Positions 2,601-34,535 of a stretch of 34,926 nt of DNA are shown in pieces. Each line of letters begins with the position of its first letter. The stretch's first letter is position 1. Location of the stretch: positions 19,692 through 54,617 of the forward strand of contig NW_003133847.1 of assembly GCF_000003605.2 (NCBI RefSeq), in the 5' to 3' direction. Origin of the DNA: Saccoglossus kowalevskii (lineage: Eukaryota; Hemichordata; Enteropneusta; Harrimaniidae). The translations under genes and the position numbers were made by a program. The notes beneath the pieces were generated by a model. The model saw only the letters and a list, made by a program, of their open reading frames with translations, did not search any database and had not been told where the DNA came from.

Positions 2601-3150
2601 AAGTTATGATTGTGCTGTTTTCTCGATTTTAGCTATTTTCACCGGCTTTTCGACCGGTTGATTGGTTGTCGGTAAACATGGGTCGGTCGGTCCTAATGAA
2701 ATACTTCAAGGTGATAGTTGAGTGCTTTGCCGGAACATTCACCTTGAAAATTCAAGATGGGAGTACACTGACACGGGACTGAAACAGACGTTTCCGTAAT
2801 TCCGATTGTATCAATTTCAAATTATGCCCTTGTACTGTCATGAATTTGTTTTTGTGTATCTGTTAATCGACTTAATTAGTTGATTATTAGCTGAATTGCT
2901 GTGTTATGTCTGTCATCGTTTAGGCCTATTTGAAGTTTTGGAAGGAACTTGGCTCAGTGATTTGGAACTAATTATGAGATAACCGTCGCTATTCAGACAG
3001 TTCATTCTGACAGTTTATATTCATAGTTATTAATGTAGTGAACGATTAATCAAAAGATATGACGTATTCAGTATTTAGTGTGATTGGCTTTATGGTTGAA
3101 GGTTACGCCCTAGATAGAGTCTTTTTACTGCTTTGTAATTGGTTAGAGTT
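2601..3150. other. No gene; partial repeat copy at about 2753-2832
   Basis: Bases 2753-2832 (AGTACACTGA ... CGTAATTCCGATTGT ... TTTCAAATTATGC) match the end of the 450-base tandem unit and its right flank at 4012-4070. The rest is AT-rich sequence in which I see nothing. Confidence 0.5.
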
Positions 3151-4050
3151 GTGAAAATGAATAAAGAGAGTTTGAGTTGGTCTTGGGGAGTACACCACGA
3201 GAGACGCAGTCTAGAGCAGTCCTGGAGAGCCTTGGAGCGAGTGTTGACGCAGTCTAAGAGAGTCTTGGGCCAGCCTTGCGATATTCTTGGGGATTTTTCC
3301 CCAGGGCGCTGTGTCTTATAGAGTGCTCGAATGACCGACTAAGACGAGAGCTGAAACGTATTTCGTTGTGTGCGTCTTATTTGACTGTAAAGTATAAGTG
3401 ACTTTCCCGATCCCGCACCTCAAGGGGACGAGATATAGAGACGAGACGAGTTTTTCCCCTGACACGTGTAGAGAACCCAGAGAGAAGAGATTTCCCCCTG
3501 ATAGTACCATGAGCATTGAATTTCCTTTGTTTATACATATACTCCATCTAAGATATACACAGGAAGTACACTGAAACACACGTTTTCGTAATTCCGAGTT
3601 GTGAAAATGAATAAAGAGAGTTTGAGTTGGTCTTGGGGAGTACACCACGAGAGACGCAGTCTAGAGCAGTCCTGGAGAGCCTTGGAGCGAGTGTTGACGC
3701 AGTCTAAGAGAGTCTTGGGCCAGCCTTGCGATAGTCTTGGGGATTTTTCCCCAGGGCGCTGTGTCTTATAGAGTGCTCGAATGACCGACTAAGACGAGAG
3801 CTGAAACGTATTTCGTTGTGTGCGTCTTATTTGACTGTAAAGTATAAGTGACTTTCCCGATCCCGCACCTCAAGGGGACGAGATATAGAGACGAGACGAG
3901 TTTTTCCCCTGACACGTGTAGAGAACCCAGAGAGAAGAGATTTCCCCCTGATAGTACCTTGAGCATTGAATTTCCTTTGTTTATACATATACTCCATCTA
4001 AGATATACACAGGAAGTACACTGAAACACACGTTTTCGTAATTCCGATTG
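3151..4050. repeat. Two almost identical 450-base tandem copies
   Basis: Unit 1 is 3151-3600 and unit 2 is 3601-4050. Reading across, I find only about two differences (near 3285/3735 and near 3509/3959). The unit has short purine-rich phrases (GAGTTTGAGTTGG, GAGACGCAGTC, CTGGAGAGCC) and no convincing reading frame. Parts of the same unit recur, more diverged, at 1897-1965 and 2753-2832, so the family is dispersed locally. It is either a very recent tandem duplication or a collapsed or duplicated assembly join. Confidence 0.85.
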
Positions 4051-4070
4051 TGTGAATTTCAAATTATGCT

Positions 4071-5519: not shown

Positions 5520-5776
5520 ATTCAACGTGTGTGACATTTGTCTTGATAAACATTAATTATCCCGTAATCCAATGCGCTCTTCTAATGGAAATCACAAGTA
5601 TGATGTTTTACCTGGGTGCGACTTGCCGTAATTACCGCCGGCGACTCCTTCGATACCTTCCAACCTATATATTCAAGCTTCTCAATTTGTACTCGTTGAT
5701 CTGCGCAGCAGTCAAAGTTACCATCTGTGTTTATATGAGACCTATATATCTCGCGCATGCGTGGCGCGACGACTAA
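5520..5776 (-). mobile_element. MITE of the TTAA/NRF1-palindrome family, copy 1
   Basis: Reverse-complemented, this stretch follows the element at 22338-22624 through most of its length: GTCGTCGCG, GCATGCGCGAGATATATA, GGTCTCATATA, GATCAACGAGTACAAA, AAGGAGTC, CGGCGGTAATTA, CATACTTGTGATTTCCATT, AGAAGAGCGCATTGGATT and GTTTATCAA. The plus-strand right end reads CGCGACGACTAACTATC followed by TTAA, so the outer end has decayed. The left end is truncated or diverged near 5520. Confidence 0.75.
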
Positions 5777-6574
5777 CTATCTTAAAAGATGAGTCCTGAC
5801 GGACCCTTCTATATTACCGTTTCATGGGCAGAGTGAGTTCGAGAGTCTTGTCATCAGAATTGCATTTGAATTTGATTCCGAACTATTTTTTTAATCGACA
5901 TGATTTGTAAATAACCGAGATATTTGTCAAGGGATTCGCTGATTGGTTATTTTTATGTTCATTCTGATGACGTAGTTAAATCAGTCACTGTATTCCATGG
6001 TTGTTTCATTTCATTTCTCAAAGGTTTAATTAGATTCATCATTAGTCTGCGAATAAAACAAAGTTATGTATCAGTTTTGTCAAGATACATTTATTTATTT
6101 AATTATTTTTTTTCCAAAAATGAATCCAACAACACAAACTGCTAGAATTTTCATACGAATGCTCTTTAATGGATACGATGAATGCAGCTTGGGTTTCAGA
6201 CGAGGTGCATTATTTCCTTTTATAACCAATTGAAAGATAGTTTCCACTAATTGAAAGATATCCATTTTTTAACATGTGGTTCAGGGCAAGCTACTGTATT
6301 TGCTTTGTTCTATTCACTTGTTTACCTGGCGCCATCTTTAAGCTCCAATCACAGGAGAGAAGTTGATCTATCTATTATAGCATGCTTTCCCTTTTCTCTC
6401 AAAATTTTCGAAAAATACAACAAATTTTCGTGTTATCGCTTAGTGTCTGAGGTCTAAGCAGCTTGACTGAATGTTATTTCAATATTGCGACAACAATTCA
6501 CAATGAACTACTGAAACTTGAAAAAAACAGAGCTATTCAAAGAATATTTCTTTGTATAGTCAAAATCGTAAGCA
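5777..6574. other. Downstream flank of gene B; AT-rich
   Basis: No exon is supported. On the minus strand this is the 3' side of gene B. The first good AATAAA is at 6090-6095 (minus), about 480 bases after the stop, which could end the transcript. Confidence 0.4.
6090..6095 (-). terminator. Possible poly(A) signal of gene B
   Basis: TTTATT on the plus strand reads AATAAA on the minus strand, about 480 bases past the gene B stop. It sits in a very AT-rich run, so chance occurrence is likely enough to keep this tentative. Confidence 0.3.
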
Positions 6575-6724
6575 TTAAATTGCACGTACCGACTCATCCG
6601 ATGAAGAATTCGACCACTGGTCAAGAGGTTTCCTAGCAACTACGAGAAATAAATGATTTCCAGATGACTCAATGAGATTTTCCACAGCATTCAAAGTGGC
6701 TCCAAGAACAATCTGGTGATTTAC
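6575..6724 (-). CDS. Gene B exon 3 (C-terminal half of PDZ)
   Basis: It follows acceptor TTCTTGCAG and begins VNHQIVLG; LFLVVARK completes the PDZ fold. Read straight through, the frame ends VRAI-stop. A possible donor (GTACGTGCA) at 6589 would cut after SSSDES, so a further exon cannot be excluded, but none was found to the left. Confidence 0.75.
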   Translation of the reverse strand, partial: VNHQIVLGATLNAVENLIESSGNHLFLVVARKPLDQWSNSSSDESVRAI

Positions 6725-9700
6725 CTGCAAGAATAATTACATAGTACGCTGCAATATTGTATACTTGCTGTAATGCTTTCCCAGAATACTCTCTACAGGG
6801 GCTAATCTGAATATATCGCTAAATAATCCCACCAATTTATATATAACATAATGCCAGATAAATTGGTATAATATACAACTGCGCATCTAGATCATTAACA
6901 ATTACCACGAGAACCCTGGTTAATATGCAACTGCTAAGAGCAAACGACACCTAGCTTCATAATGTGCGATGTTATCGCTTTCTCTGTGAGGTGTGATTGA
7001 TTCATTAAAAATATCTAAGACGCAAATGGTTGAAAACGAGATAACCACGAGACTTGTTTTTCTCCCCATCAATATTATTCCGTTCTCACCTGTCATGGCG
7101 TCTACTGTCGACTATTTGAGAGGTAATTGCAAGTCTCGTGGTTGTTTCGCTGTTAGTGAGATCTTGGCGACCATTTGCGGCCAACGACTATTGCAACCTA
7201 CCTCCATTATACAGTCATCCTTCATTAGTTTACTGTCAATGGCTGGGCTGCGTTTACTGATATGATGTACAGTAATATGTGGTGGGTTGCCTGCATCATG
7301 TATATGAGAAGGTGATGCAATGGTGGTTACGATCTTCTGTTTCAACTGAATGCCCCAACTCTCTCTGGGAGTTCTTAACACGTGGACGTGAATGATTGTG
7401 TTTCCATCGAGCTGATCGTAAAGTCCATGCAGTGGCAACTGCAGTTTGGCTTTGTGTTCTGTAGTTAATATTTGGTCAGGCCTCACTGAAACAGAGTGAG
7501 TTATAGATCTTGTTCTTACACACCGAGTAGGATCTGTGTGCAAGGGATTGCAGGTGTTATCATGGTGCTTTGGTGGACTAGTGGAGCAGACGTGGTCATG
7601 TTCTTCAGTGTTTAGTGGGAACGTTCCATTTGGTGTACGCACCCTGACAATGTCAGCAATGCTTCGTTTAACATCATCGAAAACAGCTTTCAAAGATTCA
7701 CTCTCTATTGTGTAGGATTCATTGTGCATGGTCTCAGATTCTCTGCATTTCTCGTCACTGGACTCACCCGAGATTAGTGACACGTCAAGTGGTATGTTAG
7801 GCTTGGAGAATTCGCGTGCTTCTTCTGGCTTCAGTGTTGGTACTCGGGTTGGGAGGCTTATTCTCCTCTGTTTAACTATGTCTCTGTCCCGGTTCATATT
7901 GAAATTTGGTTTAATAGGTGTAGAGTATCTTCGACTCCTTCCAGATGTTAACTCTGTTCTTCCAATCTCTGGATATTTACTCACTCCATATTTTCTGTGA
8001 ATAGGAAAAATGTCTACATATCTTGCCGCACTATGTTCCTTGGCTGAAGATGCGGGCATCTGCTGGCAAATTCTATGTCCTGTTATTTTTGAATGCAAAG
8101 CTGTGGAACGGGAATCTTTTGTAGCACTGGACACACTATTGGAACTAAAGGACAATTGTATCTCATTGTTGCTTTCGGATGAACTGATAGTATTCATATT
8201 ACTATCGTCCTGGAGTATGCAAGGGTTATTATCATGGCTTAAATCGTAATCGCTCTCAGATTTATGTTTTCCACATCCAGCATATTGTGTATACCCTTTT
8301 ACATTTTCTTCAGTTATTGTTTCAAGATCAGTATCACTTGTATCATAGTAGTATGGAGTGATATTACAATGACAGTGCTCATCACTGGGATAATTAATGC
8401 TGAAACTATGGGAATCATGTGTTCCCATTTTATTGTAGTTACCCAATGATGTCTCATCCAATGCAAACGCTTTTGATTCTGCTGGTAACACGTTGTTAGA
8501 TCTGTGATTATGAAACTTTCCTGAATTTTTGGACAACTGTGTAATGTTCTCACTTCCATTGTCATCCATAGTGGTCACGTGATACGCGATGTTGCTATTT
8601 ACACTGTGAATTACACGAGAATCATATTCTGATGTCTCTTCTGGGTTTGAGTCAGAAAGCCCACTGAATGATGTATTTGTTGACATTGACACTGAATTAT
8701 TTAATCCAGTATTAATACAATGATCTTCAATCTCGTGGTATTCATTTGAGACTGAACCATGATACTGTAATACTTTAACTTCATGTGAGCTCGCACCTGT
8801 TAGCCTATCAGAACAAAAATATTACTGAAGTATATAGAAACGGCTAGTGGCAATATCAATTTGCAGGCAAACATGCATGGTATTCAAGTATTAGATACAT
8901 TGGATCCACCACAAATCGTACATGGTGTATATGCCATGTTGGTTAGTCTACTAATATTAATAGTTCATAGTATGATGCAGGTTACTCCCATAAAATCTAT
9001 GAATCATCTCAAGATAACTTTCATAATCATAATATCAGCAATTATTTAAAAATAATGTGATTTTCTTTTGCATTTGTTGTCAAAATTAGAAGATTTAAAT
9101 GAGTACAATCCTGGTGTACGTAATTTTTCAATTTTGCATCGTTTTTTCTAAAACAAATGAAGACTATCATTCAAAAATCCTGTGGCAATTTCATCGGGGC
9201 ACAGAGAGTGAGTAAGCGCACATTAATGAATACATTGTTAATTCATCAACACTCAGATGATTTATTCTGCTATAAAATTATGTTGTGACATATATTCCTT
9301 CTTATATCCAAGCTTTTTGAAATATGTACACCTTGCCATATATACAACTCGAGTAATGATTACAACTAGCTTAAATACAGTTCTACTAATTTTAATATTT
9401 TTATCTCTGTGTAACAGCAATCCATCTATGAATCATTGAATGATACAGCCAGCCAAAGCTGTTAGTATAATTGGACATGTTTAAATAAGTAAACTGCAAG
9501 GTGAACTTTCTATTGAACTTAATAGTTTCAGTCACCTGTCGTCGGTTTTCAATACCACCATAACAATTACAACACTACAGTCATTTTGCTTATTTGAGTA
9601 TTTCACATGGAACGAATTTAAATCACAGTTCTTGCGCAAAGAAGCATAAATTACACCACGAATTCCGTGATACTACATTACTCACAGTGTCTCATCATCG

Positions 9701-9852
9701 ATGAGTGGACCATCACTGTCAGTGTCACTTGACGGCTCTGGTTTGCCATCAAGACAACCAATCCAGTCTGGAGCATCTATTGCAAGCAAAGCAACCGTTG
9801 TTGTTATCCCCTCTAGATTGGCCCCTTCTCTCTGTGAATCTTCTATGGACAT
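6575..9852 (-). CDS. Gene B: Ser-rich PDZ-domain protein, 3 exons, 639 aa
   Basis: Exons 9852-9686, 8804-7202 and 6724-6575 join in frame (phases 2 and 0; 1920 bases with stop). Residues 1-56 are an acidic N-terminus (DTDSDGPLIDDETL). About 57-520 is Ser/Thr/His-rich, low-complexity and probably disordered. About 524-622 is one PDZ domain: IIHVHVLR, a carboxylate-binding loop ESWGI, SPAIDSKLMKDDCIMEVN and a last strand LFLVVARK. The start ATG has an in-frame TAA seven codons upstream, which supports it. PDZ domains bind C-terminal peptides and scaffold membrane-proximal complexes; a partner cannot be named. The PDZ matches that of upstream gene A in sequence and intron position, so the two are likely tandem relatives. 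The last exon may instead splice onward from a GTACGT donor. Confidence 0.8.
7202..8804 (-). CDS. Gene B exon 2 (Ser-rich region and first half of PDZ)
   Basis: Acceptor TTCTGATAG, donor GAG|GTAGGT. This large 1603-base exon carries residues 56-590. The open frame runs 90 bases past the donor to 7112, but that tail lacks PDZ sense, while splicing to exon 3 restores it. Confidence 0.85.
9686..9852 (-). CDS. Gene B exon 1 (start)
   Basis: It begins MSIEDSQREG; donor ACT|GTGAGT leaves phase 2, completed to Leu by the first base of exon 2. It contains the acidic run near its end. A CAG at about 9866 upstream could be an acceptor but has a poor pyrimidine tract. Confidence 0.7.
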
Positions 9853-11506: not shown

Positions 11507-11542
11507 TTTATTCTCAACATGTGCTTATAGTCAGAAGTTAAA
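11398..11542. repeat. Direct repeat of about 26 bases in the 3' flank of gene A
   Basis: CAACATGTGCTTATAGTCAG and the following AACTTAAA or AAGTTAAA occur at about 11398-11424 and again at 11516-11542. The two copies flank the possible poly(A) signal of gene A. Confidence 0.7.
11507..11512 (-). terminator. Probable poly(A) signal of gene A
   Basis: AATAAA on the minus strand, about 50 bases past the gene A stop codon, a normal distance for a short 3' untranslated region. Confidence 0.5.
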
Positions 11543-11560: not shown

Positions 11561-11812
11561 TCATGCGTCAATTTCCTCCACGTCTTCGTGTACTTCTTTA
11601 AATGGGGATAAGTGTTCAAACCCACTGTTGCGACCAAGTTCGGATTTAAGAGCGTCAATAGTCTTGTCCTTTTCACTTAATTCTTTGACAGCCTGAAAAA
11701 GCTGAAACCTCAGCTCGTGCAACCTGCGATCGATTTCTTTGTCAGCTCTGTCGCTGTTGTCAGTAGCAGTTGGCACAGATATGGCGGGTTCATGAATTTG
11801 ACGATCAGGAGT
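11561..11812 (-). CDS. Gene A exon 11 (coiled coil, stop)
   Basis: Acceptor TTGTTTTCAG; residues 743-825. The segment [20 protein letters not shown] to ALKSEL has heptad spacing typical of a coiled coil. It ends EEIDA-stop. Confidence 0.85.
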   Translation of the reverse strand, partial: TPDRQIHEPAISVPTATDNSDRADKEIDRRLHELRFQLFQAVKELSEKDKTIDALKSELGRNSGFEHLSPFKEVHEDVEEIDA

Positions 11813-14800
11813 CTGAAAACAATATATAAAAGTTATACTACAGTATCCTGTATTCGAGAACTGCTTCCCATTTGTGAGGACCACATGGTGTTATTCAACT
11901 CAAAAACAGATGTTAATATCCAGTATGTATGTAACAGGTCATGATGATCTATTAAAACGTGATTTTTGCAGTTATATTATAATTTCATCTGTAACTAAAC
12001 ATAGTTGTGAGTGACATTTATCATCTTACATACCATTTGAGATGATTGTACGGATGCAGTTTTTCTAGCAACGAGTAGTTTAAGATCAACAGCCATTCTG
12101 TGGGAATCTATGAACTTTTCAACTTCCCTTGGTCGTAAACTGGAGACAGATTTATCATTTACCTGTAACAAATGTAGTACACTAGTCAGTATTTTATAAT
12201 ATCATAAATATGTTTTTTATGAAGTCACTCTGGTGCGTGCAGAATAAAGCGTCTTTTGAATATCAGTACAGCACCGAAATTGCATAAATTTCAGGTATGA
12301 TCTAAAGTCAGGTATGAATAACCTCACCTGTAAAATTAGATCTCCAATCTGTAAATCACTCTGCCTGCCAATAAGGTTCCTTCCAAGTTCAGCGACGCAT
12401 ACAAAACCTCCAGCATCTTCAGTGTCTGTATCTGATTCAGTCTCCATCGATGACTCAGATGTAGTTGATGACTGATAAACTGACCTTCTAGTTGGCCTTT
12501 GAGAAGATGTTACAGAAGACACAGTCAGGCGAATTCCCCAGCCTCTGTGTGCACCATTCAGGTGTCGTCTCAAGACAACAACATTGAGAATGGTGTATCC
12601 ATGTAGAGTTTCTAGGATTGGTTTCAAAGATGAATGATAAGTATCAAAATGAGGCAGAGATTGACACTTCTTGATTGTTGATTTCTCAAATGGTCGCACC
12701 ATCGGAATTGGACGTTTTTGAAGGACAGGTTGTCTGGAGATTTTGATTGGCTTACGAGGTCCCTCACAAATGTCAACTACTTGTTCATTGGCATATTTAA
12801 TATCCTGATGCTGGTTCCCAGATTCGAATGTTTTGACAGGCATTGTCGAACACCGTGGCCGAAAACCAGATTGAGGCATCCCTGTTGAGTTTTGCCGTGC
12901 GATTGTGGCCACCTGTGTTGAATTTACAATATGAGACTCTCTTGGCTGGACGCCATCAGAACACCTCAATCCTGTCCTTGGATCTGTATTTATGTTATGC
13001 ATTTTCTGTGAAAAGTCTGTGTAGCATGATCTAGGACGGACTTTTTCGTTTGGTATATGTTTTCTGTGTACATTAGCTTCAGAAATGTGGTTCTTATTCC
13101 GCCTTATTTCCACATGCATATTTGTCTTAGTGAGTGCATTTTGTACATAATGATCTTGACATCCTGGTACAGCTCCTTCAATGGAGTTTGAAGGCAGTGA
13201 GTTTGTTCTGTCCACTGTATAATGTCTCATGTCAGATTCTACGGAAGATGTTACTGATGGCACTCTTTCAATAGCTCCCAATGACAGTGATTGTGTCCTG
13301 TCCACTGTATAATGCTGTCTCTTGTCATCTTCCACAGAAGATGCTGCGGATAAATAATTATGTATAGGTTGTCTTGTCCGGGCATTTTCTGGATGTGGGT
13401 GATACACTGTGGAAAAGTTTGTTTTAGAGTAACTTGTAGCGTAATGGTCATTTCTGGTTACCGGAGGTGCCTTGTTTTGATCCAAATGCGAGAAAGACTT
13501 ACTGCAACAGTAAAAAAATGTATAGTTAGAAGATTTTCCGCAGCTCACGTTTATAATTACAGTTTTTTATTATTATTTTTTAATTTTGTATTGTTCAAAT
13601 TGCTTGATAATAATTAGTCTTTTGTCTAAAATAAAATGTTAATGTTGTTTTCTGATGAAGAATGACCAAATTGATTATGATATAACGTAAACTAAAATAC
13701 TGTTTTTGAAACATACACAGTATTTGAAAATTTGAAGAATAAAAGACATCATCAAATCAGCTTATCTTTTCGGGTTGCTTGACTGTTGTAAGATCAGAAA
13801 ATACTTCACCATAATAACGAGGCTACAGTACATAGGTTTACAACCCGTGAATTTATTTAAAATTGCCACAGTGAGTGGGAGAGATGGCAACCGAACGGTC
13901 GCAATGCCTATGAAATAACTGAAAACATCTGTGTGAAATGATTCATATTCATAATGAATGCATTGTAATACAAACAACAACAAAAAGCAATAACGATATA
14001 TTGGATGGCATGAATCGGAAATGATAGTATTGGTCGTGAGCAAATAGCATTGGAGGTAATAAACCAAGCCTAATGAAAGAAAAATGGAACATAACTTTCA
14101 ACAAGTAATTTCACATGAAATATGAATAAACATATATGTATCATTTATAATTACTCAACTTACCTGTTTTTCATACATTCTTGTTTCTCTATTTGCATGG
14201 CAGTCTTCTTCGGAGCTATGGGATCACCCTTTTTGACGTATTGGTGACATTTTCTTAAGTGACCATTAGTACCTTCTGTAGAAGTATATGGGGTGTAGTG
14301 GGCATTGACAGGTTGGGATGTATTGACCCATCGTTTAATGTATTGTTCTTTCTGCATCTTTACCATGGCAATGTGTATTTTATCTTCCCGTCTTTCATAG
14401 TTTTCCTGTGGAATAAAATTACGGTAGAATTTATATAATTTTGATGGATTTTTGCTGAGCGTATAATGTGAAGAAGAACAACTATATCTTAAAATAGTAT
14501 TTCAATCTTTGTTGTTCAATATATTAAATATAACTTCTTACATCACATCGACATTCACATTATATAGGCAAAGGGAAAATGCATGTTCAAGAACACAAAA
14601 CATGGTCAAAACCGGAAGAAGAAATACAATATTCCCCGTTTTTTGCAATGAATATATCTTTGTTGGTTACAAGGTTTGATCCATGTATAATAACAAAAAT
14701 GTGACTGAACAACGGCATTAAATTTAAAAAAAGTCTCATTTGAAACAAAGCTGGTTAAAGCTTTACTATTTTTACACTTTTGGGCAAAAACATTTCTTTT

Positions 14801-17800
14801 TCTCTTACATATATTGTGTATGCCAAGCGTTCTGTTCTATGTTGACGTATTATGTTAATTTAACTAAAAAATATTACCTCGTCCTCTAGACACTTCGACG
14901 ACTTGTCTCGGCGACGTAACTTGAATGTTTTAGGTCCAGGCGTCTTCTTTGAACAACTCAACGGCAGGTACTCGGCTCTTAGAGGCATGGACGTAACTAC
15001 AGAATTTAATTGTGGGAAAGGTTGTAAGTAACTATTAAATCGGGAAGGTCGTCACCTGCGCACGCGCGGGAATTGAGTTCCAAGCTATGATAACAACACA
15101 CGCTAAGATCACAAAGGCTCATGGGTAGACGCTTGTTTGTAAACAATGACAAGCTATGGCCATCTGACGCATGCGCAGGTGACGACTCCCCCGCTTTAAA
15201 GTTGATGTTGAACTGAAAAAGCAACTCAAAATACCGTGGGCTTCTCTGTCCTATATGTCTGTCTACCCCGTGACATCGTATACGCAAATAAAACTCGTCT
15301 CCAACAAAGCTATTTCCGCTGAATTGTGATTTGAACGAAAAGTGCGCATGTAGGCTGGATGCAGTTTCCATGAACTCTTATTTGAACAGAGGGTAGCACA
15401 AATTAAATGACATGACCCATGGACCATCATATAACTAATACTTACAGCCGGTTTCAACTGAATATTCACAGAGTTGAAAATCAGTGGCCTGTTCTTTGCA
15501 TTTATACTTGAGCAGAGAGAGTCGTACTATTTCTTTGCTGTGTGTGCTTTCACACACATGCATTGTCTTGTACGGCATCTGTGCGTAGAGATTGGAAATA
15601 ATTGAACTAGTTGTTAATGCGTTAATGTGTCGATCTCAACGGATATTTTGTCTCAATTGCGACTTGCCCACCCTGTCTATCGTGTTCGCAATCTCTTCAA
15701 TCAGAGAATCTTTTTTTCGCGTAACAAGATAATCAATTCTCTCATCTGCTGCAATTCCAAATCTCGGCTGTCTTGAATTGGTTAGTCGGCATTTGAGAAT
15801 TTCCATGTCTATGTGCCATACCCTGCTCATGACATGGTACATAAGATCAAAATATTGTCATCGCTGAATATACGACAAATCGACTACAAAATGTACTACG
15901 CACATTTACATGTGGTAACCATTACGTGACCATTATTTACTTAGTACATCTTTTGAAAACATCCTTGTTATTATAATTGAACTAGAGTACATTAGATACA
16001 ACGACGCAATGGACACACCAAGTTAATGCCGCCCTCTAGTGGCGAAGTGCTTCTGTGACGTAACTGGGTGACTTGAAATCTGTTCAAAGCGTCGATATCG
16101 TGTTGATCTGTGGCTGTCCATCAATACAAAATTTATTTTCAAGATATGTTATTAAATTCTAGACAATGAATCAAACGACAACACAAGAAAACACGTTTGT
16201 CGATTTGAATGACATTGCTTTCACCCATTTTATTTTGACGTCACAGAGGCGCTCCGTCACTTGAGGGCGCAATATATAGAAATTGTGTATTGGGTCGCAG
16301 CATGCTTGATTACTATATGTATATGTTGGTACTGTATATTTTGGTGAATGACTGAATTATTCGGTGTTTACTTTGGTGCGTTAAATTTCTTACCTCCGGG
16401 TCCAATATCTCGCCGTACACTTTGATAATTGCTCCTCTCTTGATCTTCAAAGAAAATCTTATAAAACAAGCATAAATAAATCGTTTATTTTCTCGTGCAG
16501 TGTTTCAGTGTCGGTCTTTGTATCATATATTGCTTCAGTCAGTTGTGGTTGACTGATCCTCGGCAGTATGTACGTTGTCGCATAAAGTGACGATATGTAG
16601 ACGAGATCGAAAAGTGTTCATCCATGAATTCTACTCTCAGACTGTAGTAATAATGATTTATTACCGAAGGTCAAATAAATATTATTTTGAATACAAATAG
16701 TCTGTCTTACCTTGTCGTTTCTGATGGTTGACACATTTGCAGGAGCAATGGCTTTGTGTCGTCTTCCAGTAATATGGCCGTCGAAACATTTGGATCTGCA
16801 CGTAGGATGAATTGGTATGGTTATTTATTTGTGATTCTGTGGTGTGTACAATTGTGTGAACATGATGAACATGTATCGGCTAATCTGGTTAATGTGTTAA
16901 TTTGTTAAAATGGGTCGTTCATACACCAATGTGTCATGCGGTGTTCAAGCGGTCTGGCGCCCTCGTATAAGGACAAATGGTGACTTACCTGGTTTTGAGA
17001 TTCCCGTTTCCATGGTCAGGTAATAAAGATTCGGGTCGTGGGTTTCCAATCTATATTTGTATAACACCATTTTAATCAGGTCTTTGCTGTGTAGTTGAAT
17101 AATACATGATACTATTAAAACTGCGTACTGCAATGCAAATTAGCAGTATGGCTCCCTTGTACCTGACAGCAGGTGACTTTTCACACGCAATTAGTCCGCC
17201 GGGGAAATCTACACAAGTCTAGTTATCCCTTCGTGTGAAATAATGATTCATAGTCTGGTGACGTCATATACTTCACTATATACACTATACTACACTTAAT
17301 TGAGCGGCTCGTCTGCATGATAGTTTTTTTCAGGAGTGTCAACAGCCGCCAATGTTTAACATGTCTGCCAGTACTAGTCATTCAACCCTGTCAGTTCAAC
17401 TTCCCAGGCGTGCTCAAATTTAAAATTATAAATACATATATTCAGGTTAATAGAATACAATTTTGCTAGAAACTTAAATGAGATCTAGATTTACTAAAAA
17501 AATGCATCAAATTTACCAAAATGCGTTGTGTTTAAACCAAAAAATCCATTTTGGGGTTTTTCTATATTCACATCATAGACACTTTTTTCGACTTTTCTTC
17601 GTAGATTTACGAAGGTCACGTTAGTACGCATAAGCCCACGAGGAATTTCGTTTATTTGTCAAACGAATACAACTATGTTCGTTAACAAAACATCGTTTTT
17701 ATTTTACAATAAACCATACCCTCCTGTTACCCTACCATACTAAACTCAATAATTTAGACATCCACTGTCAATTTACACAAAATAAAACCAACATAATGTT

Positions 17801-20800
17801 TTCAAATTTCTCTAAAATTTGATAAACAGATGTAACTAATAAACAATACTGTCCGTTTTGTCCAATATTATCGAAAAACATTCTAGAAAAAAGTCGTGAA
17901 AATCGAAAATGGTGGAAATTTAAATGATTTTGAATTTATCTCAAAGCTTTCTGAGGCATTTACAACTTTTGAGAGCATAACTGTGAAAATATCTCAAACA
18001 ATCGTTTTTGTAAGTAGGCTATGACGAGACATTGAAGCGTGCAGTGTAGAGGTGTAGTATTACCTGGTGGTTTCCGTGGTAACAACGAATGTCTTGTACT
18101 CCCATTCTTTCCGCAGTATACTGGCATGTACCCGGATGGAGCCCTGTAATGTGAATACGGAATAGTTTAATGTTTGCTGTTCACATTGGAATCTGTATAG
18201 GGTGTGTCAGGTGTATGTAGAAATGAAACACTTGTTTTAAATTGGCAGACACGGATTTGTTATTTTCGTACACAATATTCCCGCTATAAAAACCAAACAT
18301 CGTGGGAATGTGAGTGAAAGAAACGTAAACCTAGACAATATGCCAAGCTTTAAATGAAAATTTGTCACCGGCCTTGATTCCAGACTAGGACCTCTCACAA
18401 GCTCGAAATTTGTCCTTCAGCGCAAGGTTAGTGAGCAGCTCCCCCCCCCCCCTCTACCCCCCCCCCCGCAAAATTCCGTGCCACCGCCTCTGTACTTTGG
18501 GTGGCAGAAAAAGTCCAAATTATTGATTTAATAATTCTCTCTAAATGTTAGTTTACCCCTGTAAAATCTTTCTCTGTCCCTGCCCTCCGCCAGAATGTGT
18601 ATTGGTCATCCCTTAAACGTGGTATGTTGTGAAATATTCTCTTCATTCTTCGCTAGACACGTACAAACAGTATTTTCAGCGTAAACAAGTTAATTTATCA
18701 ATCATTTACAGAATAGTGTATGTATGTACACATCCAGTCAGAATGTAACATATATTTAGGTCGATTGTCACTACACACAGTTCAGGTTACGAGGCCAGTT
18801 TCCATGGAAACGAAGGTACATTATATCTACCCCAGGTGGTTTGACATAATAGAGGTAAATATTACTGTCTCTGATTTCAACGCTAAATATTTTGTTTCTA
18901 TTTTTACATGCGTCTGTATTTTAAATAGCCTTGGGGAAATTAGATATTGAAGTTTGTGGTATTTGAATAAAAAAATCTTTTAAAAATGTAAATATCAAAG
19001 TAATATTGTACACATGATTGTTTGATCGAAATGCATTATGGGAAAATATAGGAGCGTCGCTTGATTAAAAAAACTAGTTCGCCCTTGGCATAGCCACGTG
19101 TATCTGTTTTCGTTTACATTTATACCATTGTTCCAGGGGCTCAGTTATCATTGGACGTCTTTCACACTAACCGGATATTGACAAAACATTTGCCATTCAA
19201 GCACCTGAAAAGACGAAAACACGAGTGTTTGCAAACTTATTGTGTAAGTGTCCCGTTTCACACTCGACTTGGTGTTGTTTTCGACGTCGCTATCCATTGG
19301 TACAAAATCTACCTCCTTTTCACTCGACTCGACTCCCATTCTGTGTCGGTTTCAATGAACGACAAAGAGACTTCCGGAAGTGCTATGAATAGTATCAATA
19401 ATGAGCGCACAATGTGGATTAAACGTTTATTGTGGAGTATTCAAGTAGGCGCTCTTTTCAAGCATACACTTGTGTATAAAAAGCGGGAAGCGAATAACTA
19501 AACAGTTAATTCGACATCACAGTGTTCACTATATCCACCAGCTGTCCTATCACAATGCGACTTTTTATTCGACCGCCCTGTCCTCGAAGATTCATTGAGT
19601 TCATAACTGGGTCAGTGAGTTGACAAGATTCCGATTTTGTTAATGCAGTCAATACACGTGTGTGTGCGAACGTATCTATTTTTCAGAAAGGCACGTCGGG
19701 TAGAATGAAAACAGGGTAGTTGTTAAACTGATATACAATATTAAAATTATTTTGAAATGCTAAAAAATTCTCACAAATTATCGAATTATTACTTGATATT
19801 TGTGTTCCCATGTTTTGAATCCAGTAAACTAAACAGCAAACCCGGTAAAGAATTGCGACGTCACTGGCGCGGCGTGGCCGGGATATAATATTCAGTCGCT
19901 TTGCATAGGTGTGTGCATTCCCTGGCATTGATAATGTGCACAGTGGATGTGCAAAAACGGGAAGATGTACTTTTGAAAAGTGGAACGTACTTCATTCTTA
20001 CTTCTGCATTTATTTTGAAATGAACTTCTCAAATTAAACGTTTTAAAGAGATTTAAGAGAAGAGATTAGTTAAAATTATTATTATGAAATGGTGATTTAA
20101 AATTGATAATATCAAAATTAATATTAACACATCGTCCTCTGCTGAAAACAACATAACATCAGCTGGTGATGTAGTTGTATACCAAGAATGGAAGCGGATG
20201 AAGCTTTTCTTTTTTCTTGGACTCATGATACAATACATTGCTAAAAAAAAACGTCCCTTGAAATAACCAGATGTGTCAGCACGTCGCTAGTCAGTGTGAT
20301 CACTCGGCGCATAATTATCGAAAGACGGTAAATACTATATGGTCTGTTTATATTACTTTCTGTGTACGTGCAATTCTGTCATCAACACAAGGCATCGCTA
20401 TCAGCGTGGTGATTAGTGGCCCTGGAACTATATGAAGGAGTTGTGACTTAGCGCCGGGTGATCGATGTCCTGCACGCCAAACCAAATCTTCAAGCACGCT
20501 CAATTACGATCAAAGTAACGCTTGGTTTAAGATGGAGGGCGGAAATGCAATGTTCTCCGTGTCAACCGCCTATCATGGTGTTTAGGTGGTCTATGTGTGA
20601 GAAAGTAAAATCGTTTTACAGATACTTCCTCTATATATCAACTACCTGTTGATTTAACATGTCATATCCAGAACCCGCGGCAGATCACTGACACGCACCG
20701 GTGGCTGTCTTGTAAAGGACCGAGGTAAAGAACCTCCCGAGTTATGTCATATTATGCTCGAGGAATATAAAACACCTTATTTTGGTTTCTAACGCGTTTC

Positions 20801-21329
20801 TCTTTTTTAAGTCTATAAATATATCGAGACTTGAAAAAGCAAATTAGCTGTGCATGACCGTGAAGCGGAACAAGTATTTGGAGGGATTCCGACGGAGAGC
20901 AAGGCTGGAAGGTTTTGTAAACACATTTCAGTTTAGGTGGTGTGTTGGTTCGCCGAAGTGGAAGAAGGGGCCTTTATGTGTGCGTCGGTTGTGAATAGTC
21001 TGGTGCTGGGGCCCACGAAGTGTGTACAATGTTTGGTACCAAACGAGCCAATAAAATGCTTACGCAATACTCATGTGTACTCACTGACAGTGTCGAGCGA
21101 AAACGGTTCTTTTTTTAAAAGTCACGGTGAAAGTTGGCATGATTGTAAGACGTGTAAGACGCTATAAACTGGGAACTGGGAGACAGATGTAACAAACGCC
21201 GTTCGTTTTTGACGTAAAGGTACTCACGCAGTTATCGTTATTTTCCCATACCGAGTCGTCCGCCTGGGCGAGGGAAGGCAGTGACTTGGATTTCTTGACG
21301 TCTCGGTACGTGGTACAGTGTTTCAACAT
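11561..21329 (-). CDS. Gene A: RA-RA-PDZ-coiled-coil scaffold protein, 11 exons, 825 aa
   Basis: Eleven exons (21329-21228, 18143-18064, 17086-16989, 16795-16711, 16457-16394, 15578-15446, 14996-14878, 14405-14164, 13501-12328, 12162-12034, 11812-11561) join with intron phases 0,2,1,2,0,1,0,2,0,0 and no stop (2478 bases). Residues 35-128 are RA1 ([45 protein letters not shown]). Residues 129-220 are RA2 ([43 protein letters not shown]). Then come a Lys/Glu-rich stretch, a Ser-rich region to about 600, a PDZ at 610-732 with loop GWGI and a long acidic insertion, and a coiled coil at about 766-801. RA domains bind Ras/Rap-type GTPases, so a GTPase-regulated cortical scaffold is inferred. Afadin also has RA-RA and PDZ, but with FHA and DIL between. 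No ortholog name is claimed. Confidence 0.85.
12034..12162 (-). CDS. Gene A exon 10 (second half of PDZ)
   Basis: Acceptor TTACAG, donor ATG|GTATGT, phase 0 on both sides. It reads [18 protein letters not shown] to DLKLLVARK, the usual PDZ helix and last strand. The open frame of exon 9 continues for 111 bases past its donor but then loses PDZ sense. Confidence 0.85.
12328..13501 (-). CDS. Gene A exon 9 (Ser-rich region and first half of PDZ)
   Basis: Acceptor CTGTTGCAG, donor CAG|GTGAGG; residues 309-699. It contains two tandem copies of a motif around HYTVDRT(Q/N)SL, many basic-x-x-Ser sites, a Pro/Lys/Arg-rich stretch ([19 protein letters not shown]), and the PDZ start ILNVVVLRR ... GWGIRL ... 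LQIGDLILQ. Confidence 0.85.
14164..14405 (-). CDS. Gene A exon 8
   Basis: Acceptor TTTATTCCACAG, donor AACAG|GTAAG; residues 228-307. It is rich in charged residues and Lys ([20 protein letters not shown] near the start, [19 protein letters not shown] near the end), possibly helical. No known domain is recognised. Confidence 0.8.
14878..14996 (-). CDS. Gene A exon 7 (end of RA2)
   Basis: Acceptor TTCTGTAG, donor [23 protein letters not shown] and KTFKLRRRD form the last strands of RA2. The internal ATG is not the start: joined to exon 6 the phase fits and RA2 is completed. Confidence 0.8.
15039..15195. mobile_element. TTAA-flanked MITE in intron 6 of gene A
   Basis: TTAA lies on both sides (15035-15038, 15196-15199). 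The ends are inverted over about 28 bases: ATCGGGAAGGTCGTCACC and, reverse-complemented, AGCGGGGGAGTCGTCACC, each followed by TGCGCAxGCG. The 19-base core pairs 15048-15066 with 15168-15186. The TTAA duplication points to the piggyBac-type superfamily. The ends match the larger copy at 22338-22624 in layout, though the interior differs and is shorter. Confidence 0.7.
15446..15578 (-). CDS. Gene A exon 6 (core of RA2)
   Basis: Acceptor TCTACGCACAG, donor GGCT|GTAAGT; residues 144-187. [20 protein letters not shown] to [12 protein letters not shown] is the second strand, main helix and third strand of an RA fold. Confidence 0.85.
16029..16270. mobile_element. Inverted-repeat element (242 bases) in intron 5 of gene A
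   Basis: The left arm (CCGCCCTCTAGTGGCGAAG, TGCTTCTGTGACGT) pairs with the right arm (ACGTCACAGAGGCG, CTCCGTCACTTGAGGGCG) over about 33 bases with several mismatches. The trinucleotide AAT lies on both sides and may be the target duplication. The right arm holds a full TGACGTCA (CRE-type) palindrome. A lone arm-like phrase (GCGCCCTCTAAAGTATCCGC, then TTCTGTGAC) occurs at about 26570. Confidence 0.6.
16394..16457 (-). CDS. Gene A exon 5 (RA1 end, RA2 start)
   Basis: Acceptor TTTTATAAG, donor GAG|GTAAGA. It reads [21 protein letters not shown] nearby TTTGAAG could be mistaken for the acceptor, but only the TATAAG site keeps the frame from exon 4 and completes RA1. Confidence 0.8.
16711..16795 (-). 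CDS. Gene A exon 4 (RA1)
   Basis: Acceptor GTGCAG, donor AAG|GTAAGA; phases 1 in and 2 out. It reads [20 protein letters not shown], the acidic turn and fourth strand of RA1. Confidence 0.85.
16989..17086 (-). CDS. Gene A exon 3 (RA1 helix)
   Basis: Acceptor CAACTACACAG, donor CAG|GTAAGT. It reads [20 protein letters not shown] then YYLTMETG, an RA helix and strand. Upstream codons in the same open frame are intronic. Confidence 0.85.
17087..18063 (-). other. Intron 2 of gene A
   Basis: 977 bases, AT-rich. A T-rich stretch at 17500-18000 holds repeated AAATTT phrases. I see no element or exon in it. Confidence 0.6.
18064..18143 (-). CDS. Gene A exon 2 (RA1 start)
   Basis: Acceptor TTCACATTACAG, donor CCAG|GTAATA. 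It reads [20 protein letters not shown] and on to VTTETT, the first two strands of RA1. Phase 0 in, phase 2 out (Ser completed by exon 3). Confidence 0.85.
19205..19339 (-). CDS. Possible alternative first exon of gene A
   Basis: An ATG at 19339 opens 45 codons beginning [20 protein letters not shown], acidic and not repeat-like. The frame reaches CAG|GTGCTT, a weak donor whose phase 0 would join cleanly to exon 2 (GSIRVHAS). A perfect ETS-type palindrome lies 31 bases upstream. The product would be a gene A isoform with a different N-terminus before RA1. CAG|GTGCTT is poorly matched to a donor, so this could equally be chance. Confidence 0.3.
19370..19381. promoter_or_regulatory. ETS/GABP-type palindrome
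   Basis: ACTTCCGGAAGT is two head-to-head GGAA cores, the classic high-affinity ETS-family site found in many animal promoters. It stands just upstream (minus strand) of the possible alternative start of gene A. Confidence 0.45.
21228..21329 (-). CDS. Gene A exon 1 (start)
   Basis: It begins [10 protein letters not shown] and ends WENNDNC; donor TGC|GTGAGT, phase 0. This is the first ATG of a frame open to 21437, and upstream only a GTG precedes it. It includes KKSKSLPSL, a basic Ser-rich motif of the kind often phosphorylated. Confidence 0.75.
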
Positions 21330-22337: not shown

Positions 22338-22624
22338 AGGGCGGTGGTCGTCGCGTCACGCATGTGCGAGATATATGGGTCTCATATAGACAAAGATGGC
22401 GAGATCAACGAGTACAAACTTTCCGACTTTACCAAGCTTTAATTAGGTATTGTTTAGGTGATTGGAAAGTATTGAAGGAGTCATCGGCGGTAATTAGTGC
22501 AAGTCGCGCCCATGTCAAACCTCATACTTGTGATTTCCATTAGAAGAGCGCATTGGATTGTGGGAAAATTAATAGTTTATCAACACATATGTCGCACATG
22601 CGCAGCGCGACGACCACCGCCCCT
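22338..22624. mobile_element. TTAA-flanked MITE with NRF1-like palindromes, intact ends
   Basis: TTAA flanks both ends (22334-22337, 22625-22628). The inverted ends run about 40 bases: AGGGCGGTGGTCGTCGCG, GCATGTGCGA and ATATATG at the left, and AGGGGCGGTGGTCGTCGCG, GCGCATGTGCGACATATG at the right when reverse-complemented. GCGCATGYGC words resemble NRF1 sites. The interior matches the copy at 5520-5776. Non-autonomous, probably mobilised by a piggyBac-type transposase, judging from TTAA alone. Confidence 0.8.
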
Positions 22625-24844
22625 TTAACAGCAATGAGTACGTCTCCAGATTTTACACTAAGAAACATGTCATAGACATTTAGCTAATTTCCATATTAAT
22701 AATAGTTTTACCATCGTTTTAAAGTAAAAATTTCCAGTAACCAAACACCCTTAACATTAACAGTTCTGGTGTTGATCATTCAAATAGCTTATCGTTGGTG
22801 GCTCGCTATTTAACTACAGGAGTGTGTGAAACCTCATACTAGTAATATTTTGAGGTAAAACAACTTACAATACGCATGATATTCTTTCAGTCAATAGAAT
22901 AGCGGGATGAGACGGAGCCGAGTTAAGAAATTATTCAAGGAGTAGTGTCGTTGTGGAACACCTGGCAATGTTCATACAAATGCCATACAAATGCTAACAC
23001 GATCACTGCGTAAGAAACACTGTCACTCACACGTATGTGTACGAATTGTAAAAGGCATTATGGGATACTAGTAGTTGGCACCAGGGCGAACTATTTACAA
23101 GCCATCATATGATTTGCACACTGAACACGTTGCTGTAGACTGTGAAAGCTAGACAACTTCCCCGGGGACGCAATCAAATCAGTCGACAAAACAGTCGATA
23201 ACGTCCAACGTAATAAAGCTGCATTGGCCTGTTTTGAGTAATTGTCACATGGCATTTTACTCTGTGCTCGAATACCCCTATAAAACCAAAGACCATGACC
23301 TGCGGTAAAACGCATGACTGCGTTCAGTTAGAGTGAACCATTCATTATTACAGCCAAGAATAGAATTATATCTGCGCTCATAATATACGTGCCGTGGTAA
23401 TTATAACGGAAAACAATGTGATTACTAATTTTCAGCACGACTGACTCATTTATTTTGACTTAGCATCTTGTTAAGAAAAAGAAATTTCGACTCAGTGAGC
23501 TTAATGTGGAAGTACTTTTTGACCACAATCCTTCTGTGTTCTGACCTGTTAAACCATTTATTGGTATCCGGTTATGTTCGTTCACTGGTTCGTATGTACA
23601 ACCTGGGTATACAACGCACTAAACGACTACAAATGTATCAGGCCTCCACGTGTTTCCCAGCCAAGTAGTTTATAGACAGTTATTTAGGAAATGTTTGACT
23701 ATTTATTACACGACTGGTCACGAACGAGGCTGAATCAAAATCACAACACCCATAGATGGCGTACTGAAAATTACTTGGAAGTTATTTTCGCTATTTCGCT
23801 GAAAGAATAAATCAGTATAAATAAAATCCCTTTCATCCTACATTTTACATTCAACTCATCAAAAATCAGTGAAAATAAACTTCATACACTACAGCCGAAA
23901 TGACTTTACAGTGAAAATTAATTCCAGCTATTTCACACGTGACGGTACAAAATCGAGCTGATATCGGGTTGACATTCTGATGAGAAATACATCACTGAAA
24001 TCACTTGTTTGCCTTTTTCAATGTGATAACTTATGACATTTCTCATGACTCGTGGAATTAATTTAGTATTTACGTGTTGACGCTGCAGCTCGTGGACAGG
24101 TGCAGTTCAATCATACCGTTATATTTACATCACTGCCTGTCGCTGTCAGACCAGAGTAGACAATGTTCAGGCACTTATTTTCTGTGTTGAACATTTCAGC
24201 GATAAAATGTTATTTTATTAAAATGTTTGTAGTTTTTAAAATAAAACAAGGTGAAAATTGTTTTATGCCTAAAACACAGACGATTTTTCAGCCCGCCCCA
24301 AAAAAATAAATAAAAAACGTGGCGTATGCATAAAATAGGACAGAAAAGATACACAATTCAAAGTTGCATATGTACTAAGTGACGAGAAATCGTACAAAAC
24401 ATATCGTTCCAAAACAAAAAAAATACACAAAATAGTAAAAGTGAATGAATGGGATACACATACACTGATTTGAATTTAGCACTATAAAACCGAGAGGTGC
24501 TCGTGCGTATTTCCAACCAATGGCATCACAGTAAATATGCATGGCCGCAGATCGGCCAATACGAGACTCACAAGCAGCGTCCAGGAGGTCTCGATGTCTG
24601 TGAATTCAACTGAGTAAATCCCGCTACAAACATCGATGATTACAAATATTTGGCATTTGTCCAGTAATGTAACGTGAACACAATAACAAAATATTAAATG
24701 CACAAATATACACCAAATATAAATCATTCAAAGTGTAGAAAGACACATACATATAAGTTCATGATGGTTCGCGGAAGTTCCAGTCATATGACTTTCAACA
24801 CCATTTTCGTCCGGACTTTTCGGTACTCACAAATTACAAAAAAA
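22625..24844. other. Intergenic, no gene seen
   Basis: AT-rich sequence with short open frames on both strands and no splice-supported exon. Around 23770-23900 a phrase TTTTCGCTATTTCGCTGA recalls the MITE at 29229-29439 and may be a decayed relative. Confidence 0.4.
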
Positions 24845-25567
24845 AATTACTGAACCCTTTAGAAATTAGTGATGTTTGCAAACAAAACAGTATTATCCCA
24901 TTAGCTACAAAAAAACTAAAAAATATGTTTGAAAAACACTGCACAGAAACAATGCACAATGACAATAAAGGCACTAACCACAAAAATAAACTTCGTACCT
25001 ACAGACAGCTGAAAACTGATTTTGCACTTGAAAAATACCTTGAAATTATTAAAAAAAAAAACCATCCACAGATCATCTATGACTAAACTGAGGATAAGTG
25101 CCCACATACTTCAGATTGAAATTGGGTGATATCACAACATAGATATCTTAAATAGAACATGCCTTGTCTGTGACTCCAATGAAACTGAAGATGAAGAACA
25201 CTTCCTCTTCAATTGTAACCTGTACAAATTTGAAAGAGAGGCTTTGTTTGAAAACTTAAACTTATCCCGTAATCTGAAAGATTTTCTCAATAACAAAAAT
25301 TCTGAAACTGCCCAAGCAATTGCCAAGTTTATCAGCGACTGTTTCACTAAAAGAGAAAACTTCATGAAAAGCAATTTACCAGCTGCCTCAAAATAACACC
25401 AAAAAATATTTATATAATAATAATAATATTTTTACAGTATTACTATTTATTTATTTCCTTTTTTTATTATTATTATTACTTATGTATTTTATTGTTCCTT
25501 ATATCCTTATTGTGTTCTAATCTAGATCCCAGAGGGGATACGATATCAATAAAGATTGTTATTATAC
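24845..25567 (+). mobile_element. LINE (non-LTR retrotransposon) 3' end, broken
   Basis: The plus strand gives KLRTYRQLKTDFALEKYLEI (from 24988) and, in another frame, KLRISAHILQIEIG, then LNRTCLVCDSNETEDEEHFL, FNCNLYKFEREALFENL and a stop at 25394. This is the C-terminal region after the reverse transcriptase of Jockey/CR1-like elements, with the Cys-x2-Cys ... His ... Cys motif. There is one frameshift near 25080 and one in-frame TGA at 25127. The 3' region has ATT runs and ends near AATAAAGATTG. It is 5'-truncated, as LINE copies usually are. Confidence 0.8.
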
Positions 25568-33869: not shown

Positions 33870-34535
33870 TGCACATTTCAATTAAAGAACTGAATATATC
33901 ATTAGAAAATAAACAATATGTATAGTATCAAAGCAATCAGACTTGCAGTTTTTAAACAAGAAGTGAAAAATATCACTTTTTACTAAAAATATTCACTAAA
34001 ATTAGAGAATTGAAGATATCATCATGAAATAAACAATCTGAGTTAGAACCACATGTAGTACCTATATATATGTAATATCAAAGCAATTGGACTTGCGCTT
34101 TTTAACAAGAAGTCGAAAATATCACTTTTTACCCAAAATGGCAAAATTATTCACCAAAATTAGAGAATTGAAGATATCATTACAAAATGAACAAATCTGA
34201 GCAAGGTCCACATGTAGTACCTATATATGTAATGTCAAAGCAATTGGACTTGCGGTTTTCAACAAGAAGTTGAAAATATCACTTTTTACCAAAAATGACA
34301 AAAATATTCACCAAAATTAGAGAATTAAAGATATCATCATGAAATGAACAAATCTAAGAGAAGTCCACCCAAGGTACATATACACCAAGTATCAAAGCAT
34401 TCAGGCTTTTAGTTTTCAAGAAGAAGTCGAAAAAGTAAAACATTGACACGGACGACGACGGACGATGGATGACGACGGACAATCACTCATATGATAAGCT
34501 CCGCTCGACAAAGTCGACAGCGGAGCTAAAAAAAA
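33870..34535 (+). mobile_element. Pearl- or Helitron-like non-autonomous element with core tandem repeats
   Basis: Units of 150-157 bases start near 33941, 34091, 34248 and 34402; each has (G/A)ACTTGCxxTTTT, AACAAGAAGT, AAAATATCACTTTTTACC, ATTCACCAAAATTAGAGAAT and GAAGATATCAT. Then follow a GACGACGGACGATGG microsatellite (about 34449-34480) and a hairpin (34497-34527, stem AGCTCCGCT/AGCGGAGCT, inner CGAC/GTCG) running into CTAA and an A-run to 34535. This order (core tandem repeats, microsatellite, 3' hairpin with CTAA) is that of bivalve pearl elements, which are linked to Helitrons. The 5' boundary is not clear. Confidence 0.6.

Follow-up and report, generated by a model that had tools for sequence, protein, structure and literature searches.

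Gene structure

The window (the whole 34,926-nucleotide stretch of Saccoglossus kowalevskii DNA analysed here, C2563:19692-54617 in the contig set of its own genome) carries on its minus strand a gene whose 11 exons, rebuilt from the raw sequence and running from 21329 to 11561, join in phase without a stop codon and encode a protein of 825 amino acids (Table 1). All 10 introns are of the GT-AG type and their phases agree; the eleven exons in perfect phase that the first-pass annotation had proposed were thus all found in their places, on the same strand. Codon usage was scored by a leave-one-out procedure against 4000 intron windows, and this supports exons 1 and 3–11, for which 0 to 3.8% of intron windows score equally well (0.85% for exon 1, which may be either the first exon or an internal one). 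The score of exon 2 is weak and is reached by 7.4% of intron windows, and exons 2 and 4 have a higher codon-usage score in another frame. The poly(A)-signal-like hexamer beyond the stop codon is the sole AATAAA or ATTAAA within the 400 bases scanned.

Table 1. Exons of the two minus-strand genes of the window and a downstream signal.
Feature	Position	Strand	Content and support
Exon 1	21228..21329	-	residues 1-34; first in-frame ATG at 21329; splice sites and phase
Exon 2	18064..18143	-	start of RA1; splice sites, phase and Pfam; weak codon score
Exon 3	16989..17086	-	RA1; splice sites, phase and Pfam
Exon 4	16711..16795	-	RA1; splice sites, phase and Pfam; another frame scores higher by codon usage
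Exon 5	16394..16457	-	end of RA1 and start of RA2; splice sites, phase and Pfam
Exon 6	15446..15578	-	RA2; splice sites, phase and Pfam
Exon 7	14878..14996	-	end of RA2; splice sites, phase and Pfam
Exon 8	14164..14405	-	linker; splice sites, phase and codon score
Exon 9	12328..13501	-	linker, then the opening part of PDZ, starting near 12609; Ser/Thr-rich insert
Exon 10	12034..12162	-	second part of PDZ (to about 12055)
Exon 11	11561..11812	-	stop codon, preceded by the coiled coil (11740-11636)
AATAAA, poly(A)-signal-like hexamer	11507..11512	-	48 bases past the stop codon
Neighbour exon A	9686..9852	-	own ATG; none of 4000 intron windows has as good a codon score
Neighbour exon B	7202..8804	-	linker, then the opening part of PDZ, starting near 7414
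Neighbour exon C	6590..6724	-	second part of PDZ (to about 6620)
Neighbour exon D	6026..6046	-	stop; least supported exon, with a codon score matched by 30% of intron windows

When the 825-residue protein was searched against its own genome (572 Mb in 4830 contigs), the matches at E ≤ 1 were only its own exons (11 of 11 candidates scored), in a search that scores the best candidates only and could miss a diverged second copy. The gene is intact and is a real animal gene with a well supported model, and it is apparently single-copy.

Domains of the 825-residue product

Pfam finds the RA profile (PF00788) in two stretches of the whole protein (5.3e-20, 72.3 bits against a curated cut-off of 21), and each stretch passes that cut-off when searched alone, RA1 with 47.1 bits (3.7e-12) and RA2 with 34.0 bits (4.7e-8). 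The two had been described as complete RA folds lying back to back; both domains are there, but the match for RA2 is limited to positions 4-71 of the 93 in the profile and leaves its last part uncovered. The PDZ profile (PF00595) is barely above its cut-off of 23.2 bits in the whole protein (24.6 bits, 3.4e-5) and reaches 30.1 bits (6.2e-7) when the domain is searched alone, so that the profile search of the product for RA and PDZ, which the first-pass annotation had put forward as a check, places both above their curated cut-offs and upholds its PDZ assignment. The remaining Pfam matches are weak PDZ or RA relatives and chance matches, all below cut-off, and no FHA, DIL, RGS or kinase domain was found in the 825 residues at E ≤ 10 (with filters that drop most matches above 0.1). 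For the RA pair, NCBIfam returned argR alone, at 12.2 bits against a cut-off of 130.45, a chance match.

RA1 and RA2 are related to one another, with a local alignment score of 81, where the highest of 2000 shuffles reached 56. Each has a phase-1 intron at or just after a shared ETG (VETG/FTS at one of the junctions), a pattern that an old tandem duplication would explain; no further RA introns correspond between the two domains.

The linker between the RA pair and the PDZ domain (residues 228-600) had been called Ser-rich; its Ser content is a modest 9.4%, and the very Ser/Thr-rich segment is instead a 39-residue insert inside the PDZ domain (residues 630-668; 28% Ser, 21% Thr). Two stretches of exon 9, 13195-13258 and 13285-13351, are 79% identical in DNA and give the linker an imperfectly repeated peptide. 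The GLGF loop of the PDZ domain reads GWGIRL, and by eye there is no His at the position expected for a class I PDZ. Residues 767-801 form the C-terminal coiled coil that had been proposed: 9 of 10 a/d positions are hydrophobic (Ala counted), and when the last 83 residues were shuffled 1000 times, no shuffle reached the same heptad score.

A downstream neighbour with a related PDZ domain

A second gene, which the first-pass annotation missed, lies downstream on the same strand (9852-6026); its exons join in phase through GT-AG introns and encode 641 amino acids (Table 1). Its PDZ domain scores 21.4 bits in the whole protein, under the Pfam cut-off, and 26.0 bits alone, over it. The two PDZ domains align with 27% identity over 136 columns (blastp 2e-4, one sequence against the other without low-complexity filter), and their local score of 71 compares with a best of 50 in 2000 shuffles. 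The intron phases of the 3' halves are equal in the two genes (2, 0, 0), and in both the PDZ intron falls just before a VN pair. A tblastn search with the 825-residue protein found no RA exon for the neighbour in the window; a match of residues 205-274 at 9120-8899 (E 1.8) is at chance level. We read the neighbour, from these sequence features, as the probable result of a tandem duplication confined to the gene's 3' half, or as a duplicate from which the RA exons were lost. The two linkers were also compared and homology was rejected, their score of 32 being equalled or exceeded by 299 of 300 shuffles.

The neighbour shows that a linker-PDZ gene without RA domains occurs at this locus, and the eleven-exon model might by the same token be two adjoining genes, one RA-RA and one linker-PDZ-coiled coil, wrongly joined. 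We consider such a misjoining very improbable, as the junction of exons 8 and 9 is a phase-2 junction whose donor agrees with the consensus at 9 of 9 positions and whose acceptor is good, and the joined product has no in-frame stop.

Comparison with afadin and RADIL

A two-sequence profile of RA1 and RA2, run against 177635 PDB sequences, matched afadin chain 1wxa best (4e-9), followed by a chance endonuclease match (0.056) and by 3ec8 (FLJ10324) at 0.15; we take 1wxa to be the RA2 domain of afadin and 3ec8 to be RADIL. Searched singly, RA1 also has 1wxa as its best PDB match (1.7e-5), and RA2 matches 1wxa (0.045), C. elegans AFD-1 (0.28) and 3ec8 (0.93). The PDZ profile matched Scribble, ZO-1, ZO-2 and MAGI (best 2.7e-5) and also bacterial Do/DegQ proteases, and therefore says little about the type of PDZ; the PDZ of afadin is absent from the best 60 of its 134 PDB matches, a two-sequence profile being one that separates PDZ types poorly. 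In viral and prokaryote contig collections 0 of 8 and 0 of 37 pattern stretches, respectively, were confirmed for the RA pair, a result that is uninformative for an animal gene.

Like afadin/Canoe, the gene has two RA domains followed by a PDZ domain, and its RA pair matches an afadin chain; it differs in that its RA domains are back to back and that no FHA or DIL was found. Could exons for these domains have been missed? The two introns between RA2 and PDZ measure 472 bp (14877-14406) and 662 bp (14163-13502), 1134 bp in total, and the bare FHA and DIL profile lengths (67 and 105 positions) could fit there, so that the argument is carried by the open frames and by two separate genes at other places in the genome, one DIL-PDZ and one RA-FHA. 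Four open frames in these two introns contain no FHA or DIL match at E ≤ 1; the frame at 13762-14097 has a match to LrgB only, below cut-off and taken as chance. Two further intron frames (19683-19991 and 15006-15377) had no domain match.

The separate DIL lies on another contig, C994, where two exon matches from 4 candidates reach 1e-31 when joined, in a genome-wide DIL list with gaps, since it contains neither the DIL of the RADIL-like gene nor the one expected for myosin V. About 1.8 kb downstream of this DIL the same strand encodes the beginning of a PDZ domain, NYSVKFVKGNTGMGLSIVAAK, whose PDB matches are Dlg4 (0.062), Canoe (0.064) and afadin (0.37-0.52); 6 of its 12 matches are Canoe or afadin, all of them weak, and the DIL stretch itself matches myosin DIL chains only (16 matches). 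We label this DIL-PDZ gene afadin-like tentatively. The separate RA-FHA gene is RADIL-like and lies on C1728, with an RA match of 2.5e-14 and a sub-threshold FHA match (19.5 against 20.7 bits). It was one of five places (L001-L005, this being L001) found in a genome-wide RA search, all of them outside the window, where the RA exons were presumably missed for being short; among these five, its RA region is the best tblastn match of RA2 (E 0.047). The FHA- and DIL-free intron frames together with these two genes make an afadin with missed exons improbable, and we conclude that the gene is probably not one. The order RA-RA-linker-PDZ-coiled coil without FHA or DIL, as first annotated, is right for the gene model by both Pfam and the intron frames.

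That the gene is instead a derived afadin, which has lost FHA and DIL, would agree with its domain order and with afadin as the best match of its RA profile. We nonetheless think such a descent quite improbable: C994 carries a DIL gene followed by the start of a Canoe/afadin-like PDZ (even if that PDZ match is weak and equalled by Dlg4), afadin PDZ does not appear among the best 60 of the 134 matches counted above, and RA1 and RA2 share a single best PDB chain, 1wxa. The likeness to RADIL lies in the related RA type (3ec8). Known RADIL has a PDZ domain and one RA, with FHA and DIL; the gene differs from RADIL/RASIP1 in having two RA domains and no DIL or FHA reported, and the RADIL-like RA-FHA gene of this genome is a separate one.

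Comparison with Rau/CG8965

The nearest named protein is Drosophila Rau/CG8965, set beside the gene by description only. Rau homodimerises and prefers active Ras, and a 2013 study by Sieglitz is reportedly the one that defined it. To our knowledge fly Rau has no PDZ domain, and among human proteins we know of none that has RA-RA-PDZ but lacks FHA and DIL. The two proteins share the presence of two RA domains; the PDZ and coiled coil of the gene described here are not known in the fly protein.

CG8965, paired with the name rau in a table (PMC7309417), is described as having two RA domains and is proposed as a Ras effector candidate (PMC2405789), and Rau is described as promoting FGFR signalling in wrapping glia (PMC7595039). 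These descriptions argue for the gene being a Rau/CG8965 ortholog, which would make its product a Ras effector with positive feedback on receptor tyrosine kinase signalling, and one carrying a PDZ and a coiled coil perhaps absent from the fly protein; we regard such orthology as a real possibility that falls somewhat short of being probable. One source describes rau as a protein that binds ras-GTPase and has homologs, left unnamed, in mouse and human (PMC4390571); should Rau be the ortholog, this would speak against a family confined to invertebrates. Orthology with Rau would be compatible with the gene encoding an effector scaffold (below) and would name its family. Such mammalian homologs, set against the human proteins familiar to us, also suggest that Rau may belong elsewhere.

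The first-pass annotation knew no named family with this domain order. That part stands to the extent that, among the matches listed from 5.39 million open papers searched for proteins with two RA domains and a PDZ, there was no RA-RA-PDZ-coiled-coil family (which is no proof of absence); it had overlooked Rau/CG8965. The listed matches show Canoe/afadin, PLC-epsilon and RGS12/14 (PMC11810119, PMC11698047, PMC8163975). If the order proves conserved, it would define a Ras/Rap effector class outside the named families known or found, and would separate the roles of tandem RA domains from the junction-actin functions of afadin. If the gene is simply a Rau ortholog, it would extend the fly work to another animal branch and raise the question of where the PDZ was gained or lost.

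Predicted function

The 825-residue product of this intact, apparently single-copy gene probably serves Ras-family GTPases as an effector scaffold. The two afadin/RADIL-type RA domains would bind active, GTP-bound Ras or Rap at the membrane, the C-terminal coiled coil would make the protein a dimer with four RA sites, and GTP-bound Ras or Rap could thus recruit the dimer through up to four RA domains, while the PDZ domain on its long flexible linker would bring a partner to the same place. In its mode of action such a scaffold might resemble Rau or the RA portion of afadin, minus afadin's junction-actin part. GTPase binding, dimerisation, the PDZ partner and the role in Ras/Rap signalling are all predicted from the protein sequence.

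The residues at the presumed binding face are consistent with this prediction. Both RA domains have a basic residue in strand 1 (R38 and K134) that aligns with an R of 1wxa, and both retain the YK of strand 2. A basic residue in helix 1 (K66 and R162) aligns with a K of 3ec8; K66 and R162 are perhaps one place off K/R84 of CRAF, which we take to lie in helix 1, with R/K59 of CRAF presumably in strand 1. R/K59 and K/R84 (CRAF) are described as the only two RAS-contact residues conserved in RA/RB domains (PMC8163975). Both Canoe RA domains are reported to bind Rap1-GMPPNP (4.5 and 8.7 µM) and RA1 of PLC-epsilon to bind none of these GTPases (PMC11698047), so that an RA domain need not bind a GTPase. 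RGS12/14 and PLC-epsilon resemble the product in having two GTPase-binding domains, tandem RB or RA (PMC8163975, PMC11698047), but differ in carrying RGS or phospholipase domains, none of which was reported in the 825 residues.

The neighbour is a built-in, RA-less comparison for the RA-bearing gene. RA exons 1-8 would join its exon B in frame, both being in phase 2 (a 1-in-3 coincidence), and as these downstream linker-PDZ exons start in the phase of exon 9, the RA exons could splice to either PDZ module; the RA-less protein, for its part, could be a natural antagonist that competes for the PDZ partners. A still wider proposal, of an unnamed animal Ras/Rap effector family built on a coiled-coil dimer with four afadin-like RA domains and with a swappable PDZ or an RA-less antagonist, we regard as unlikely.

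Other features of the window and genome

The window also contains a 450-bp direct tandem duplication (3146-4052) that is 99% identical and probably recent, and a 157-bp tandem repeat in about 3 copies (33916-34433). An inverted dispersed repeat (5528-5773 and 22347-22598, 76% identical over 268 columns) is perhaps a transposable element, and open frames on the plus strand at 24757-25396, the second with a sub-threshold zf-RVT match (0.014), are perhaps the degraded end of a non-LTR retrotransposon.

Elsewhere in the contig set, contig C4830 (L021) is probably the mitochondrial genome: its COX1 match has seven in-frame TGA codons, read as Trp. At the nine aligned ATA codons, the best PDB match 7o37, which we take to be mammalian, has Ile five times, Val twice, and Leu and Met once each, which favours ATA being read as Ile, a reading that, taken with the AGA, AGG and AAA usage given next, points tentatively to an echinoderm or hemichordate. 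AGA and AGG are unused in this COX1, and AAA is used once.
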